Assembly: GCA_027069135.1 (NCBI GenBank)
Contig: JALXFE010000342.1
Coordinates: forward strand, 1-64,000
From: Thermoanaerobaculia bacterium
GTDB lineage: Bacteria; Acidobacteriota; Thermoanaerobaculia; Multivoradales; JAHZIX01
Direction of reading: 5' to 3'
Length of the DNA: 64,000 bases
This document shows positions 53,096-60,772 of this stretch, in pieces. The translations under genes were made by a program, and so were the position numbers. Below the pieces are notes generated by a model. That model worked only from the letters and a program-made list of their open reading frames with translations. It had not been told where the DNA came from and did not search any database. How positions within the stretch are numbered: position 1 is the first letter of the stretch; each line of letters starts with the position of its first letter.

Positions 53096-54010
53096 ATGGG
53101 CCTATTGTCCGGATCCGCCAGTATCAGCCGTTTCAAAGTCGTCAGCCGACCTCCGGAGCCGGATTTCGAAACAGCGCGTTTCACCGAAATCCAACCCGGG
53201 TCCGAGGTGCGGGAGCGCTCCGGCTTTGTGCCCATGGAACCGGAGGCCGCCTACCAGGTGGGCCACGAGCGCTTCGCCTTTAGGGTCCGTCAGGACCAGC
53301 TCAAACCGGATCCGACGGCGGTGCGGGAACGGGTCAAGGATCTTATCCGCATCGAGCTCGACACCAGCGGCGCCAGCTCCGTGGGGCCCAAGAAACGCAA
53401 AATGCTCCGTGAGCTGGCGGAAGAGGAGCTCATCGTTCGCTCCTCCCCGCGGTCCAAGATCGTCGAAGGGACCATCGACGGCGAGACCCTCTACATCGCC
53501 AGCACCGCCAAGAACTTCCTCGGCACCGTCCTGCTGCTGCTACGCCAGGTGGGAGTCGTGGTCGAACCTTTCGCCCCCTGGACCGCGGACGGAAGCGCCG
53601 AGGAGATAGAGAGCGAATTGATCGAAATCCGCGAGCCCGGCCACTCGGTCCTCGGCTGCCGCTTTCTCAAAGCCTTGCTCGAAGACCGGGAGCTGCTCAT
53701 GGAACCGGTGACCGGCAGCGTACGGCTGCAGACCCGGGAAGCCAAGGTCTCCCTCACCGGCGCCGTCTTGACGGAGCTCTTCCGCTATGTCGAGCAGGAC
53801 GCAGAGATTCTCTCCGCCAAGCTCACCACCGGTGAGATCACCTTCCGCCTGGACGGCCCCAGCTTCCGCATCACCGGCCTCTCCATCGAAACCGCCCGCC
53901 ACGACCATTGGACCGAGCTCCTCGACGAACGGATCGAAAAAATCTCCGCCGCCTACGAGCTCTTGGACGGAAAATACGCCAGCCTCGCGGAACAGCTGGT
54001 CAAGAGCTGA
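53096..54010 (+). CDS. RdgC-like (recombination-associated) protein
   Basis: This 304-residue soluble protein begins MGLLSGSASISRFKVV, and its layout resembles RdgC-family proteins, which bind DNA as a ring and modulate RecA-dependent recombination. Supporting stretches are PMEPEAAYQVGHERFAFRVR, a basic helix VGPKKRKMLRELAEEELIVR, and the helical end LLDGKYASLAEQLVKS. The family similarity is by pattern only, so the function is moderately sure. The ArsC-family selenoprotein candidate starts 18 bases downstream, probably in the same transcript. Confidence 0.6.
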   Translation: MGLLSGSASISRFKVVSRPPEPDFETARFTEIQPGSEVRERSGFVPMEPEAAYQVGHERFAFRVRQDQLKPDPTAVRERVKDLIRIELDTSGASSVGPKKRKMLRELAEEELIVRSSPRSKIVEGTIDGETLYIASTAKNFLGTVLLLLRQVGVVVEPFAPWTADGSAEEIESELIEIREPGHSVLGCRFLKALLEDRELLMEPVTGSVRLQTREAKVSLTGAVLTELFRYVEQDAEILSAKLTTGEITFRLDGPSFRITGLSIETARHDHWTELLDERIEKISAAYELLDGKYASLAEQLVKS

Positions 54011-54028
54011 GGAAGGAGAGCTAAAAAG

Positions 54029-54385
54029 GTGATCACTCTGATTTGCACCCGCACGTGAGGCACCTGTCGCAAGGCGGTCGCCTTGCTCGACGAAAAAGGC
54101 ATCCCCTACGAGTACCGGGAGTACCGTTTGGATCCCTTGAGCGAGGAGGAGATCCGGGCGGTGTTGAAGAAGCTGCGGCTCCCCGCCTCGGGCGTCCTTC
54201 GTAAAGGGGATAGAGCCAACAAGGAGCTTGGGCTCACCGGGGAAGAGCCGGAGGTGGAATTGATCCGGCATATGGCCCGGCAGCCTACCCTCCTGCAGCG
54301 ACCCATCGCGATCCTCGGAGACGAGGCCGTTCTCGGCCGACCGGTGGAGAGGGTCTTGGAGCTGCCAGTAGAGCCAGGACAGTAG
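54029..54385 (+). CDS. ArsC-family thioredoxin-fold protein with predicted selenocysteine at the catalytic position
   Basis: From GTG at 54029 the frame reads MITLICTRT, then TGA at 54056-54058, then GTCRKAVALLDEKGIPYEYR and so on to TAG at 54385, 118 residues in all. In ArsC/Spx relatives the residue at the TGA is the catalytic Cys (pattern CGTCRKA), so reading it as selenocysteine gives a U-x-x-C motif. The rest is a normal ArsC-like protein: LDPLSEEEIRAVLKKL, VLRKGD, LIRHMARQPTLLQRPIAILG and an RPVERVLEL end. GGAAGGAGAG lies upstream of the GTG. A hairpin with a GGUC loop starts 7 bases after the TGA. It probably acts as a thiol or selenol oxidoreductase; arsenate reduction is only one possibility. 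No insertion machinery is in the window. The alternative is a nonsense-mutated gene. Confidence 0.8.
54066..54091 (+). promoter_or_regulatory. Candidate bacterial SECIS hairpin
   Basis: GTCG (54066-54069) pairs with CGAC (54088-54091), and CAAGG (54070-54074) pairs with CCTTG (54081-54085), leaving a two-base bulge CT on the 3' side. The apical loop is CGGTCG. The GGUC in the loop begins 17 bases after the TGA. In the well studied E. coli fdhF element the loop GGUCU begins about 18 bases after the UGA, and the loop GGU bases bind SelB. Confidence 0.7.
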
Positions 54386-54464
54386 AGACGGGCCAGTAGA
54401 GACGGGCCAGTAGAGACGGGCCAGTAGAGACGGGCCAGTAGAGACGGGCCAGTAGAGCCGGGCT
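54367..54464. repeat. Seven tandem 14-bp repeats
   Basis: The unit AGTAGAGACGGGCC is repeated without change five times at 54381-54450. A diverged copy flanks it on each side (54367-54380 and 54451-54464). The stop codon of the ArsC-family gene lies inside the second unit. Because 14 is not a multiple of three, changes in copy number would not extend that protein. Confidence 0.95.
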
Positions 54465-54524
54465 GGTTGCGAGCCCGCCGGGCGGCGGCCAGGGGAGGGC
54501 TGGAAGTCCGATGGAGGGCTCTGG

Positions 54525-55478
54525 TCAGGGGATCATCTGGATCTTTCGCACCCCGGACTTGGCGGCGTGCTCCAGGGCTTCAAGGGCCTGGCGGAGCGGA
54601 TACTCACCGTCGATCAAGGGCTCGACGGCAATGGCGCCTTGCTCCAGGAGGCGAAGAGCCGGCTCGAAGGGGCCGCAGCGGGAGCCCAGGACTCGCACTT
54701 CTGCGACCACCAACTTGGTCAGGTCCACGGTGACTCTCTTGGCGAGAGTGCTCTTCAGGACCAGATCCCCCTTGGGGCGGACCAGGCGTAGGGACTCGGC
54801 CAGACCGCCCTCGTTGCCGGTGGCCTCGACCACCAGATCGAAAGCATCGCTGGGCGACTCCGAGGCCAGGCCGGTCTCCAAACCGAGCCTCTCGGGCAGG
54901 GTCAGCGACTCCTTCCGGCGACCGAGGACCTTGGGGGCGCCGCCGGCTAAGGCCAGGACCTGGGCAATCAATAGGCCTAGACGCCCTGGGCCCACCACCG
55001 CCACCCGCGCCGAAGGGGGCAAAGGTAGCTGCTCCCGAATGCGCAGGGCGGCGGCCAGAGGCTCTGCAAAGACCGCGACCCGATCCTCGAGGCTCTCCGG
55101 GACCGGCAGAAGGTTCGCTTCCGGCAGGGTCAGGTAATCGGCGAAGGCACCGTCCTTGCCATCGATCCCTAGGACCTTGCGTCGGGGGCAATGCTCTGGA
55201 CCGGAGCCTATGCATTCCGGGCATTGGCGGCAGCCCAGGTTGATCGAACCGACGACCCGCTGTCCTTGCCACTCCGGATCTTCCGACTCCTCGACGACGC
55301 CGACGAACTCATGCCCTAAGACCCCACGAAAGGCGCGGTAGCCCTTGAGGATCTCCAAATCCGTGGCGCAGATTCCCAATCGGATCACCCGGATGAGAGC
55401 CTCCCCGGGGCCCCGCTCCGGGAGGGGGCGGTTCAGGACGAGGCGAGGGCCGGTGTCGGTGACCTCAACCGCTCGCAC
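54525..55478 (-). CDS. Zinc-dependent medium-chain alcohol dehydrogenase
   Basis: This 317-residue MDR-family dehydrogenase has the catalytic zinc-site start GICATDLEILKGYRAFRGVL and GHEF, and the structural zinc motif CRQCPECIGSGPEHC with four cysteines. The Rossmann motif is VAVVGPGRLGLLIAQ. It is shorter than many relatives (about 340 residues) but appears complete to the end AAKSGVRKIQMIP. The GTG start overlaps the 3' end of the DUF6986 gene by 14 bases, so it is the last gene of the xanthine dehydrogenase operon. The substrate is unknown; its position suggests an aldehyde, alcohol or hydroxy-acid intermediate of purine or one-carbon metabolism. Confidence 0.85.
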   Translation of the reverse strand: MRAVEVTDTGPRLVLNRPLPERGPGEALIRVIRLGICATDLEILKGYRAFRGVLGHEFVGVVEESEDPEWQGQRVVGSINLGCRQCPECIGSGPEHCPRRKVLGIDGKDGAFADYLTLPEANLLPVPESLEDRVAVFAEPLAAALRIREQLPLPPSARVAVVGPGRLGLLIAQVLALAGGAPKVLGRRKESLTLPERLGLETGLASESPSDAFDLVVEATGNEGGLAESLRLVRPKGDLVLKSTLAKRVTVDLTKLVVAEVRVLGSRCGPFEPALRLLEQGAIAVEPLIDGEYPLRQALEALEHAAKSGVRKIQMIP

Positions 55479-56823
55479 GGCGAGTCTCGAGAATCCTCAG
55501 GAAAGAGCGCCCGCGAAGCTCCTCTAGGGTCAGGCCCGTGGCCAGCACCTCGTCTTCCGTCAAGGCTCCGCAGCTCAAGCCCCGCAGAAAGTAATTGAGC
55601 AGACCCTGACCCGTAGCGGCGTCGTCGAACACATCTCCCACCAGGGTCGCCTGGGCCGCCTGGCGGACGAAATTCGACAGGCGCTCCGTGGCCGCCTCGC
55701 GGCCTTCAAGGAAGAACGAGTAGAGGGCGGCGTAGCGGGTCGGCAGCTGGGCCGGGTGCAGATCCCAACCCTGAAAAAAGGCGTTCTCCAAGGAGTGGAG
55801 CACGTGCTCGAAGTGGAGACACCAGGCGCCATGGACCCGCCGGGCGTTCTCTTTCTCCTGCTCCCGGGTCAGCGCGGCGTCCGCGGTGGCCCGATGGGGT
55901 GCGACCGGCAGGATGTTCGTGGCGCCGTCGGAGAGGAACACTCCCGTCCCCGCCAGGGCGATCTGCATCAGGCCGCGGGCCGCATCGCAGGCCGCGTGAT
56001 CCATGGTCTGCTGCTCGGCGGTGATCTCCAGGCTGGCCGTATAGTCGTAGACGCCGAAGTGGGCGCCGGTGCAGCGGCCCCGGGCGGCGGCCACCAGAGC
56101 CGGTAACGCGAGGCGTCCTTGGGGATCAAAAAGGCTCTGAGGGGTCTCCACCATCAACTCCAGCTTTAGGGAACCCGGTGCCAACCCGGCCTTCTCCTCG
56201 AAGGCCTGAAGCAGATCCACCAGGCCCGCCACCTGTTGCGGAACGGTGACCTTCGGCAAGGTGATCACGAAGCCCGCCGGCATCTCGCCGCCGGTCTTTT
56301 CGAGCAACGCGGTCAGGAAAAGATCCAAGGTCCGGGCGCCACGGCGGGCCAGCTCGCGGCTGAACGTCTTGATACGGATTCCCAGGAACGGCGGCAGGAT
56401 CCCAAACTCCGCGCCGCGAGCCACCTGGTGGGCGGCGGAGACGGCGCAGGCGTCCTCCTCCTCGTCCGGACGGTTGCCGTAGCCGTCCTCGAAATCGATG
56501 CGAAAATCCTCCACGGGCTCCCGCCGGAGCTTGGCGACGACGCGGTCGTACACCGTCTCGGCTAACTCGCTCGAATGTTCCATGCCGATGGCGTTGGCGA
56601 AGGCCTCGGCGTCGGGGCCGTATCGCTCCAGCGATCTGAGCGCCAGCTGCCCCAGCTTCTGAGCGGAGTCTGCACGAAAAAGATGAGCCCCACCGTAGAC
56701 CGTATGTACCGGCTGCCGGGCTGTGGATTGTCCCGGGTAGAGGGCCGCCCAGGAGTCGTAGGCGCCCAGCATGGGGCCGAAAATCGTGGCGATGGCGGTG
56801 GAATCAAGGGTCGTCTTCATCAT
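55465..56823 (-). CDS. DUF6986 protein (HpcH/HpaI aldolase/citrate-lyase-like)
   Basis: This 452-residue protein corresponds to the DUF6986 group, sometimes labelled phosphoenolpyruvate kinase-like or malate-synthase-like. Visible features include FRIDFEDGYGNRPDEEEDA (metal-site-like acidic loop), VITLPKVTVPQQVAGLVDLL, LKLELMVETPQSLFDPQGRL and GAHFGVYDYTASLEIT, which fit a TIM barrel of the aldolase/citrate-lyase type. It is full length. GAGGAACC precedes the ATG. It lies 18 bases after the xanthine dehydrogenase FAD subunit. Association with purine genes suggests a step handling glyoxylate or another C2-C3 product, but that is inference from position. Confidence 0.8.
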   Translation of the reverse strand: MMKTTLDSTAIATIFGPMLGAYDSWAALYPGQSTARQPVHTVYGGAHLFRADSAQKLGQLALRSLERYGPDAEAFANAIGMEHSSELAETVYDRVVAKLRREPVEDFRIDFEDGYGNRPDEEEDACAVSAAHQVARGAEFGILPPFLGIRIKTFSRELARRGARTLDLFLTALLEKTGGEMPAGFVITLPKVTVPQQVAGLVDLLQAFEEKAGLAPGSLKLELMVETPQSLFDPQGRLALPALVAAARGRCTGAHFGVYDYTASLEITAEQQTMDHAACDAARGLMQIALAGTGVFLSDGATNILPVAPHRATADAALTREQEKENARRVHGAWCLHFEHVLHSLENAFFQGWDLHPAQLPTRYAALYSFFLEGREAATERLSNFVRQAAQATLVGDVFDDAATGQGLLNYFLRGLSCGALTEDEVLATGLTLEELRGRSFLRILETRRASG

Positions 56824-56841
56824 GGTTCCTCGGATCCTGCC

Positions 56842-57666
56842 TTATTTCTCATCTGAGAATAAGGCATGGAAGAGCGTGCGGGAAAAGACCTTCTGCCGAT
56901 ACTGTGCCGTCGAGCGGATATCGTCGATGGGAGAAACATCCTGCCGGATCGCAGGCATCAGATCCTCCGGTCGCCGAATGGGAGAACCGTGCTCCAACAT
57001 CCCTTCGAGAGTCCGGCAACGGCAGACCGTCGGCGCCATGCTGTTGGCCACCACCCGCCAACCGGCGGCGCTGTGAGTGGCCGCGAACCCCAATTTGGTG
57101 ATCGCCTGAGCCCTCCGAGGCCCGATCTTCTCGAAGACTTCTACGTCGTGGCGGCGACGCGGCAGCCGTACCGCCCGGACCAGCTGGTTGGGGCGACGCC
57201 GCATCTGCTTATAGCCCAAATAGAACTCCGAAAGAGGAATTTCCTCCTCCCCTTGAGTCGAGACCAACTCCACCACCGCGTCGTAGGCCATCAAGACCGG
57301 AACCCCGTCGGCTGCCGGGGATGCGTTGACGATATTCCCCGCCCAGGTGCCCCGGGCCTGGATCTGCACCGCTCCCACCTGCCGACCGGCCTTTTCAAGG
57401 AGCGGGAAGGCATCGCAGACCGCCCGGTCCCCGAGGGTCTGCCAATAGGTCACTCCCCCCCCCAGGATGAGAGCGCTGTCGCTCCAGCGGATCGCTCGGA
57501 GCTCCGCCAATTGGGAAAGATCGAGGAAGGTGCGGCCGTGATCCTCGAAACGCTGGGGCCAGTGGACCAGAAGATCGGTTCCTCCCGCCAGGGGAACGGC
57601 CTTTCCATCGGAGGCCGCCAACATCTCGCAGGCTTCCTCGAGATCCGAGGGAAAGAGCATCGTCAT
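56842..57666 (-). CDS. Xanthine dehydrogenase family, FAD-binding subunit
   Basis: This is the 274-residue FAD-binding medium subunit of a three-subunit molybdenum hydroxylase. The FAD motif is AVPLAGGTDLLVHW near the N-terminus. QARGTWAGNIVNASPAADGV is the second FAD loop typical of XdhB/CoxM. The C-terminal CO-dehydrogenase flavoprotein domain ends near IRSTAQYRQKVFSRTLFHAL. The start overlaps the stop of the iron-sulfur subunit gene by four bases (ATGA), so the two are translationally coupled. It passes electrons from the iron-sulfur clusters to NAD+ or another acceptor. Confidence 0.93.
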   Translation of the reverse strand: MTMLFPSDLEEACEMLAASDGKAVPLAGGTDLLVHWPQRFEDHGRTFLDLSQLAELRAIRWSDSALILGGGVTYWQTLGDRAVCDAFPLLEKAGRQVGAVQIQARGTWAGNIVNASPAADGVPVLMAYDAVVELVSTQGEEEIPLSEFYLGYKQMRRRPNQLVRAVRLPRRRHDVEVFEKIGPRRAQAITKLGFAATHSAAGWRVVANSMAPTVCRCRTLEGMLEHGSPIRRPEDLMPAIRQDVSPIDDIRSTAQYRQKVFSRTLFHALFSDEK

Positions 57667-58136
57667 GGCGATGTTTCCTCCTGGCGCAGAGCCTCGGCGA
57701 TCCCTTCGATGATGCCGTCATAGCCCGTGCAACGGCAGAGGTTCCCCGCCATCAGCTGGCGGACGGACGCACGCTCTAGCAGCCCCGGATGATCGATCAC
57801 AAACCGAGCGGTCATCACGACGCCGGGAGTGCAGGCGCCGCATTGGGTCGCACCGGACGTGTGAAGCTCGACGAGAGCCTCCGGCGCCACGCTCTCTACG
57901 GTGTCCACCCGGCGATTCCGGACCTGACCGACCAGGATCAGGCAGGAGTTGACGGGAACTCCGTCGAGATGCACGGTGCAGGCGCCGCATTCGCCTTCGC
58001 CGCAACCCTCCTTGGTCCCGGGCAACCCCAAGCGGTAGCGCAGGACGTCCAGGAGCCGCTCGGTTCCGGTACCGCTGAACCGGATCTCTTCGCCATTCAG
58101 GGTGAAGCCGATGTCTCGGTGCTCGGGCTTCGTCAT
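57663..58136 (-). CDS. Xanthine dehydrogenase family, 2Fe-2S subunit
   Basis: This 157-residue small subunit has two [2Fe-2S] clusters. The plant-ferredoxin-type cluster is GCGEGECGACTVHLDG with a later Cys in VNSCLI. The helical cluster is QCGACTPGVVMTARF followed by GNLCRCTGYDGI. It starts MTKPEHRDIGFTLNGEEI. Its ATG overlaps the end of the molybdenum subunit gene by four bases, and its own stop overlaps the FAD subunit start. It relays electrons between the molybdenum site and FAD. Confidence 0.95.
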   Translation of the reverse strand: MTKPEHRDIGFTLNGEEIRFSGTGTERLLDVLRYRLGLPGTKEGCGEGECGACTVHLDGVPVNSCLILVGQVRNRRVDTVESVAPEALVELHTSGATQCGACTPGVVMTARFVIDHPGLLERASVRQLMAGNLCRCTGYDGIIEGIAEALRQEETSP

Positions 58137-60334
58137 CGGGCAACCTCCCGGGCTTCGAGCACCGACATCATCCGCTCCGGGGTCAATGGGATTGTGCAGG
58201 GATCCGCTCCCGTGGCCGCGGCGACGGCATTGACGATGGCGGGAGCCGGGCCGTCCATGGGGAGCTCACCGATGCCTTTGGCCCCTTGAGCGCCGTGGGC
58301 ATAGGGGTTCTCCAGAAACGCTACCCGGATCGGCGGTACGTCATCGCTGGTGGGAATGATGTAGTTGGTCAGCTGACCGTTGGCCATGGCGCCGTCCTTG
58401 AAGCGGAAATCCTCCAAGAGGGCCCAACCGATGCCCTGAACGACGCCCCCTTGGATCTGCCCCCGGGCCAGGACTTCATGGAGGACTTTTCCGATTTCCT
58501 GAACGGCGACAAAATCCAAGACCCTCGCCGTGTAGGTTCGAAGGTCCACTTCCACGGCGGCGACATAGGTCGCCCAGGCGAAGGCCCCATAAGCCTCACC
58601 GCGATAGTTCGCATCATCCCAGTGGATGCCATCGGGTGGCTCGTAATGGGCGGTGCCCAACAATTCCTCACCGGGGTGTTGCCGGTGCCAGAGCGCAAGG
58701 GCGGCGGTCAAGACCTCGCCACGCTCCTCGTTCCCCAAACCGAGGCGTCGGCGCAAATCGTCACAGGCCTTCTCGATGAGACCGCCCACGACCATAGTCG
58801 TGCGAGAGGCCACGGTGGGTCCGCTATCCGGAACCCGGGCGGTGTCCGGCTCGGCGATCACCACATCCTCCGCCTTAAGGCCCAGGCGATCCGTCACCAA
58901 TTGGGTGAACACCGTCTGGGTACCCTGCCCCATCTCCGTGTTGGCGGTACGCACCTCGACTTTGCCGTCCGCCAGCCCCGCCACGTGGACTTCGGAGGCG
59001 AGATATACCTCACCGCTGCCGGTAAATCCGGCACCATGGAGAAACGTCGCGAGCCCGACACCCCGACGCAGATAGGGGTGGGTGTCGTTGAAATCCAGGT
59101 AGGCGCGGCGTTTGTGCTGAAAGGAGGAAAGCTCGAGAGCCCGGTCGAGAACCTTAAGACGGTCCGTACCGTCGGTGATGACCTGACCGGTGGCCGTCTC
59201 CTCGCCGTCCCGGATCAGATTCCGGCGCCGGATGCGAACCGGATCCAGAGTCAACTCCGAAGCGATGCGGTCCATCTGCCGTTCGCAGGCGAAGAGGCTT
59301 TGGGGAGCTCCGAAGCCCCGAAAGGCTCCGAAAGGGACCGCGTTGGTCAGGACGGCGCGCCCCCGGATGCGCACATTCTCACAGTGGTAGGGCCCAGCGG
59401 CGTGGATCACCGCCCGGCTCAGCACCACCGAAGAGAGCGTGGCGTAGGCTCCGGCATCGAGAACCACTTCGATATCTTGAGCCAGAAGCCGTCCCTTGGT
59501 ATCGACCGCCGTGCGGTGCCGGATCCAGGAAGGGTGGCGCTTGGTGGTCGCCACCATATCCTCGCCCCGCTCGTAGATGAGCTTCACGGGCTTGCCCGCT
59601 TTGAGCGCGAGCAACGCCGCGTGGAGGGCGATGCCGGAAGGGAACTCCTCCTTGCCCCCGAAGCCACCGCCGGTGGGAGCTTGGACCACCCGCACCTCGT
59701 GATCCTCCCGCCCCAGGGCCAATTTCAACGCCTTCTGCACGTAATAGGGGCATTGCATCGAGCCCTTCACCGTCACGACGCCATCTTCCACCCAGGCCAA
59801 CATCCCCTGGGTCTCGAGATACACGTGTTCCTGGGCACCGGTCGTAAAGACGCCCTCGACGACGACGGGGGCCTTCGCCAGGGCCTTATCCACGTCGCCT
59901 TTTTCGATCTTGAGCTCTTTGAAAACGTTGTCGTTCCCGTGCTGGATCTGCGCGGGTTCCGGCGGCTGCCGAAAATCAAAGATCGGCGGCTCCTCCTCCA
60001 CCACCACCTCTACCGCCTCCACCGCTCGCCGCAGGAGGTCCCGGTCGGCGTGAGCCAAGAGCACCACCGCCTCGTGGACATGGCGCACCGCCTCCGCGGC
60101 CAACACCGGCTGATCCGTCTCGATCAAGGCGATGACGTTCTCGCCGGGCAAATCCCGATGATCCACCACCACGAACTCCCCCCAATCGAACCCCTCCCCG
60201 AACCGCACCTCCCGGATCCGCCCCCGGGCGCAGGAGCTTCGAACCGTCGCTCCCCACAGGCAATCCGCTACCGTGAGGTCGTCGACATAAGCCTCCCGGC
60301 CCATCAATTTGGCCAGCCCTTCCCGGCGCTTCAA
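58133..60334 (-). CDS. Xanthine dehydrogenase family, molybdopterin-binding subunit
   Basis: This is the large molybdenum subunit, 733 residues from the chosen start, which hydroxylates purines such as xanthine. The alpha/beta hammerhead begins KRREGLAKLMGREAYVDDLT. Molybdopterin-binding motifs include QAPTGGGFGGKEEFPSGIAL and FGAFRGFGAPQSLFACE. Near the end ARGQIQGGVVQGIGWALLED and the Glu-containing KGIGELPMDGPAPAIVNAV are seen; the latter carries the conserved active-site Glu. TTG at 60334 has GGAGG six bases upstream and fits family N-termini. A longer start at 60403 (MDTSGENRRN) has no such support. It is the first gene of a five-gene operon. The exact substrate cannot be fixed, but the allantoin genes at the other window end favour purine oxidation. 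Confidence 0.92.
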   Translation of the reverse strand: MKRREGLAKLMGREAYVDDLTVADCLWGATVRSSCARGRIREVRFGEGFDWGEFVVVDHRDLPGENVIALIETDQPVLAAEAVRHVHEAVVLLAHADRDLLRRAVEAVEVVVEEEPPIFDFRQPPEPAQIQHGNDNVFKELKIEKGDVDKALAKAPVVVEGVFTTGAQEHVYLETQGMLAWVEDGVVTVKGSMQCPYYVQKALKLALGREDHEVRVVQAPTGGGFGGKEEFPSGIALHAALLALKAGKPVKLIYERGEDMVATTKRHPSWIRHRTAVDTKGRLLAQDIEVVLDAGAYATLSSVVLSRAVIHAAGPYHCENVRIRGRAVLTNAVPFGAFRGFGAPQSLFACERQMDRIASELTLDPVRIRRRNLIRDGEETATGQVITDGTDRLKVLDRALELSSFQHKRRAYLDFNDTHPYLRRGVGLATFLHGAGFTGSGEVYLASEVHVAGLADGKVEVRTANTEMGQGTQTVFTQLVTDRLGLKAEDVVIAEPDTARVPDSGPTVASRTTMVVGGLIEKACDDLRRRLGLGNEERGEVLTAALALWHRQHPGEELLGTAHYEPPDGIHWDDANYRGEAYGAFAWATYVAAVEVDLRTYTARVLDFVAVQEIGKVLHEVLARGQIQGGVVQGIGWALLEDFRFKDGAMANGQLTNYIIPTSDDVPPIRVAFLENPYAHGAQGAKGIGELPMDGPAPAIVNAVAAATGADPCTIPLTPERMMSVLEAREVAR

Positions 60335-60772
60335 GGAGCACCTCCGGGCCCAGAAAAGTCTTTGAAATAGAGCATTTCGGCGATTCTCTCCCGAGGTATC
60401 CAAAAGCGCAAGACAGCCCCCGACCCGAGAACCGACCTCTCCAGCACAGCCGCCGTGAAGAGAGCCTTACGAAGAGGGTGGGGAGGCGTCTAAGGCGTCT
60501 AGGTTGTTTGCCACTTCTCAAGACCCCGCCCGCCATCCTCGGACCCCGTCGACAGTGCCCTGCGGGAACGAAGATCTACCTGCAAACTGGAACCCCTCAT
60601 CTTCAGCGCTCAAAGCTTGCCGGAGATGTCGCAGTTATGCTATCCTGTGAGAACTCTTTTCAGAGAGGAGATTTTCTATGTCGTGACTTACCCTGGCCCT
60701 TGCAATCCGGCTTTGGGCCGCGGCTTTGAGCGCCCTGGGGGAAGTTCACAATCAGCTTATGGAGGTATTCCC
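60335..60772. other. Intergenic region between divergent xdh operon and Cys-rich peptide gene
   Basis: No gene is supported. The left part upstream of the xdh start contains no clear promoter. The right half holds a possible promoter for the Cys-rich peptide and its leader of about 120 bases, with no obvious open frame. Confidence 0.45.
60617..60646 (+). promoter_or_regulatory. Possible promoter of the Cys-rich peptide gene
   Basis: TTGCCG (60617-60622) and TATCCT (60641-60646) are separated by 18 bases in an AT-richer patch. The predicted start near 60653 leaves a leader of roughly 120 bases. Confidence 0.32.

Follow-up and report, generated by a model that had tools for sequence, protein, structure and literature searches.

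In ArsC arsenate reductases, the residue that opens a C-x-x-C/S loop serves as nucleophile, and arsenate is bound by three arginines. Selenocysteine (Sec) versions of such proteins are known in some bacteria, as the original prediction for the locus described here had stated: the GOS selenoproteome contains a UxxS form, 'arsenate reductase 1', and a UxxC form, 'arsenate reductase 2' (cd03032) (PMC2398784). Both UxxS and UxxC ArsC selenoproteins are tabulated again in a later paper (PMC9312934), and a third source, which also tabulates ArsC selenoproteins, ties the UxxC form to the model NF041106 (PMC13188914).

Here we describe an ArsC-family gene in a 64,000-nucleotide stretch (the window) of contig C342 of a Thermoanaerobaculia bacterium assembly (7.17 Mb, 626 contigs). 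It is almost certainly a genuine selenoprotein gene, in which we infer Sec insertion at codon 10, and it combines features that are divided among the described ArsC subfamilies.

An ArsC-family gene with TGA at the catalytic position

The gene (Table 1) reads GTG(54029)...ACG TGA GGC ACC TGT CGC AAG...TAG, and its readthrough product would be VITLICTRTUGTCRKAVALLDEKG...LGRPVERVLELPVEPGQ. As originally proposed, the TGA lies in frame at the catalytic Cys position within a U-x-x-C motif, with a GTG start 5' of it and ArsC-like protein on both sides. The readthrough product matches the Pfam ArsC family PF03960 at 41.9 bits (gathering cut-off 24), and its AlphaFold model is a confident ArsC fold (pLDDT 90.1, pTM 0.80) whose best matches among solved structures, at TM-scores close to 0.9, are arsenate reductases. 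ORF calling under the standard code recovers just a 100-aa piece that starts at 54083, 3' of the active site, in line with the expectation that annotation software would call the downstream part alone.

Table 1. Features of the ArsC-family locus and of the selenocysteine gene cluster on the same contig
Feature	Position	Strand	Remarks
RdgC-like gene, upstream neighbour	window 53096..54010	+	304 aa; phrog_724, E 3.5e-8
Likely ribosome-binding site around AAGGAGAG, 5' of GTG start	window 54013..54020	+	Putative, from direct reading of the sequence
ArsC-family gene, almost certainly a selenoprotein gene	window 54029..54385	+	118 aa; GTG start, TAG stop (54383-54385)
TGA presumed to encode Sec; codon 10, first position of U-x-x-C active site	window 54056..54058	+	TGA in 21/21 aligned homologues and 6 further
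SECIS upper hairpin GCAAGGC-GGTC-GCCTTGC, 7 bp	window 54069..54086	+	GGUC loop 54076-54079, 17 nt after TGA
selD	C342 80030-80953		362 bits, over curated cut-off
selB	C342 81060-82943		350 bits, over curated cut-off
selC	C342 83033-83127		69.7 bits, over cut-off; anticodon UCA
selA	C342 83459-84814	opposite to others in cluster	554 bits, over curated cut-off

Among 197 relatives searched, 21 genomes (the window's own included) carry a close homologue; the proteins from other genomes of this order-level set are 54-68% identical to the window protein, and TGA occupies the same codon in all 21. When 396 genomes from across the phylum were searched with a profile, six full-length members came to light in families outside the order, each with the TGA and a hairpin, together with one truncated member (in G297; 97 bits over 69 positions, one TGA read). 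The clade thus comprises 27 genomes with a full-length copy, all 27 copies having TGA, and one with a partial copy; no Cys member was found in the genomes searched. Full-length clade members score at least 174 bits and other full-length homologues at most 109 bits.

Homologues have Cys or Sec at the codon-10 position, in agreement with the alignment check that the original prediction had suggested, and a named-genome collection yielded no more than distant Cys homologues or short matches. The 21 members form a group of their own in a tree, apart from other ArsC forms, with moderate fork support (83/99). Two further Sec ArsC proteins, L046 (UxxC) and L048 (UxxS), are placed among Cys forms, which points to more than one gain or loss of Sec within the ArsC family.

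Relation to named subfamilies and likely function

Of the named models, TIGR00014, the glutaredoxin-type ArsC, comes closest to the window protein, at about 75 bits (75.4) against a curated cut-off of 106. The two share their fold, overall length and three active-site arginines: R58, R91 and R104, invariant in 20/20 clade members, align with the LR/MR, RP and GRP arginines of ArsC, the substrate arginines that we take to be R60, R94 and R107 in the R773 enzyme. TIGR00014 proteins have a CxxS or UxxS loop, whereas the window clade has UxxC with a built-in, presumably resolving Cys; this Cys13 is likewise invariant, as is an additional Cys6, which stands at the place of His in the TIGR00014 HNP motif.

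NF041106 (ArsC_rel_Se_1) resembles the window clade in being ArsC-related, in its UxxC motif and in occurring in the same order. However, the ArsC arginine triad is missing from an aligned NF041106 member of this order, the window protein reaches 12.9 bits where the curated cut-off is 85, and NF041106 genes are present as separate paralogues beside the window clade in three genomes (G036, G040 and G026). A search of the window's own genome gave no NF041106 match. Sec proteins of NF041106 type with the motif NGUTSCT[KR]ASKFL (L072 in G036, L073 in G060) are common throughout the order, occurring in about 50 of the 79 genomes searched. Spx and YffB-like members of the ArsC family share the fold and have a CxxC active site, but the aligned Spx chain has VGY where the clade's last arginine falls in GRP, and TIGR01617 (Spx/MgsR regulators) reaches 47.1 bits against a curated cut-off of 75. 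The GOS 'arsenate reductase 2' is ArsC/Spx-related with UxxC, like the window clade, in a comparison made by description only (PMC2398784).

We therefore file the window clade as a selenoprotein of known kind in a new subfamily, outside the current named models and set against the GOS proteins by description, because it has both the ArsC arginine triad and UxxC, and misses the cut-offs of both models, TIGR00014 and NF041106. The chances seem evenly balanced that it constitutes a third, unnamed ArsC selenoprotein subfamily, defined by an intact arginine triad, a C-x3-U-x2-C motif with its own resolving Cys and the constant presence of Sec in the genomes searched, for which glutaredoxin would be dispensable in the first resolving step. 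If so, reduction of an oxyanion or another substrate would no longer need glutaredoxin for that step. Standard annotation cuts this subfamily to a 100-aa fragment without the active site, and current NCBI models miss it at their cut-offs.

The proposed mechanism begins with UGA codon 10 being read as selenocysteine, SelB and tRNA-Sec recognising the hairpin 17 nt downstream. The product would be a thioredoxin-fold reductase of the ArsC family in which Sec10 acts as the nucleophile; its target would be either an oxyanion, arsenate or some other, bound by Arg58, Arg91 and Arg104, or else a disulfide. Cys13 may then resolve the adduct as a selenenyl-sulfide, which a cellular thiol system would presumably re-reduce.

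That arsenate is the main substrate is a tentative reading. Its physiological role as substrate is doubtful because no Acr3 was found in the genome, ArsB-like proteins appeared only below threshold, and no arsenic gene adjoins the ArsC gene. The missing Acr3 and the lack of arsenic genes alongside also suit a contrasting reading with close to an even chance, namely that the protein is indeed a selenoprotein but serves in general thiol-disulfide oxidoreduction or in Spx-like regulation, not as an arsenate reductase; UxxC belongs to the redox motifs of the kind seen in Spx and thioredoxin, and Spx profiles and structures do match the window protein. Against this, all three ArsC-equivalent arginines are invariant, the top fold matches are arsenate reductases and not Spx, and TIGR00014 outscores the Spx models.

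A SECIS hairpin under selection follows the TGA

Bacterial SECIS elements have been modelled as hairpins with a loop of 3-9 nt, a G in the first two loop positions, a spacing of 16-37 nt and an MFE of -7.5 kcal/mol or lower (PMC13188914). The window hairpin, with its 4-nt GGUC loop, spacing of 17 nt and MFE of -14.6 kcal/mol, falls within every one of these bounds. In E. coli fdhF (GGTTGCAGGTCTGCACC, confirmed in E. coli records), GGUC likewise sits between GCA and UGC. The search for a SECIS element that the original prediction had recommended thus finds a hairpin 3' of the TGA, and several lines of evidence indicate that it is under selection. Pairing is complete across the 21 distinct aligned sequences (147/147 cells, 100%), and two pairs show compensatory two-sided changes, C-G to U-A in L023 and A-U to G-C in L030 and L037; none of 500 shuffles gave a covariation score as high. 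In the six sequences found later, which lie outside this pair count, the hairpin is perfect in four, retains 5 pairs in one and has a CGUG loop in one.

It could be argued that the hairpin sequence is kept only through the conserved peptide RKAVAL that it encodes, whose residues are near invariant. Yet it is at codons +4 to +9 (CGC AAG GCG GTC GCC TTG) that synonymous choice is frozen, and other invariant residues show no such restriction. Codons +4 to +8 are represented by fewer codons than expected, with p-values of 0.000-0.041 that treat kin genomes as independent, and for that reason more weight attaches to how these codons differ from their neighbours. Codon +9 is TTG in 18 of the 21 sequences, whereas TTG makes up 11% of the gene's remaining Leu codons. 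Where the codons do change they change in concert: L030 and L037 have AGG together with CTG, L023 has CGT together with TTA, and pairs are thereby preserved. Moreover, the unrelated selD has the same hairpin geometry. Conservation through the peptide alone is accordingly very improbable, and the hairpin is best read as a SECIS element.

Both selD genes of the window's own genome are themselves selenoprotein genes with the arrangement TGA-N17-GGUC, one having 8 and the other 9 stem pairs. Across 182 kb of DNA from this genome, TGA-N17-GGTC occurs at 20 sites on both strands, and a stem of at least 5 bp forms only in the ArsC gene and the two selD genes. A covariance model built from the ArsC and selD hairpins, run over the whole genome with 150 of 7,703 candidates scored, recovered these three known sites with confidence; the next match, at C238:17836 (20.6 bits), lacks a convincing frame and was set aside. 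A consensus of UGA-N17-GGUC with a 7-bp stem, common to the ArsC clade and selD, would be useful for finding the additional selenoproteins that this lineage may have.

Other Sec ArsC proteins vary in this respect. L048, from a genome of another family in the same class (G146), has the UxxS sequence HNPRUSKSR and a hairpin of the same geometry, GCAGGC-GGUCA-GCCUGC, whose loop lies 17 nt after the UGA; a Sec ArsC group with the motif EKPTUT[TK]CR (L093, L095, L097, L098 and L099, from f37 genomes) lacks a GGUC hairpin at that spacing. The exact SECIS string of the window was absent from the viral contigs searched.

A complete selenocysteine system accompanies the gene

Sec decoding would require selA, selB, selD and a selC tRNA, for which the original prediction had suggested searching the genome. 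All four are present on the contig that carries the ArsC gene, clustered at 80-85 kb, about 26-31 kb from it. Second, divergent copies of selB (C273:15747-17630), selD (C320:8966-9889) and selC (C185:5396-5491) lie elsewhere in the assembly, and selA is single; DNA identity between the two sets is 66% for selB (749 bases aligned), 69% for selD and 84% for selC. The duplicates mean either that one cell has two Sec decoding sets or that the assembly is contaminated, contamination being estimated at 2.4%. The additional tRNA-Sec matches that were examined proved to be ordinary Ser, Leu, Gly and Tyr/Thr tRNAs. Across the relatives, selA occurs in 177 of 197 genomes and in 20 of the 21 that bear the gene, the exception (G063) being 82% complete; as selA is nearly universal in these relatives, its co-occurrence with the gene is uninformative by itself.

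The presence of a complete Sec system together with a SECIS element also bears on the idea that a changed genetic code assigns TGA to some other amino acid. Such a code would supply the readthrough that the frame needs, but TGA is an ordinary stop here: a TGA at 54008-54010 closes the upstream gene, and many of the homologues themselves end in TGA. We consider this explanation negligible.

Nor is there any real prospect that the TGA, which interrupts the frame when read by the standard code, is a nonsense mutation, a sequencing error or the mark of a pseudogene: 27 independent genomes from several families share it at the same codon, none of their copies has another internal stop, and the surrounding protein is conserved while its synonymous sites vary. 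The sign of chance origin that the original prediction had named, a random nonsense change accompanied by other decay in close relatives, was seen in no relative's copy. The nine codons before the TGA are particularly telling in this regard: their protein sequence is kept while synonymous sites vary (the Leu codon at -6, for example, appears as five different codons), which argues that this stretch 5' of the TGA is translated.

Genomic neighbourhood

The original prediction had placed the gene after an RdgC-like gene, a context it thought might be undescribed. The RdgC-like character of the upstream gene is confirmed, but its position next to the ArsC gene is not conserved: in a genome of the same genus, the RdgC-like homologue and the ArsC gene lie on different contigs. 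No neighbouring gene recurs within 1.5 kb across the homologue loci. Window positions 54364-54472 carry a tandem repeat of about six GCCAGTAGAGACGG-like units of 14 bp, which spans the ArsC stop codon; each unit contains TAG. Further downstream, the minus strand of the window (54525-60403) has a cluster encoding a zinc-type dehydrogenase, a DUF6986 protein and a three-subunit molybdenum hydroxylase, all unrelated to the selenoprotein finding.
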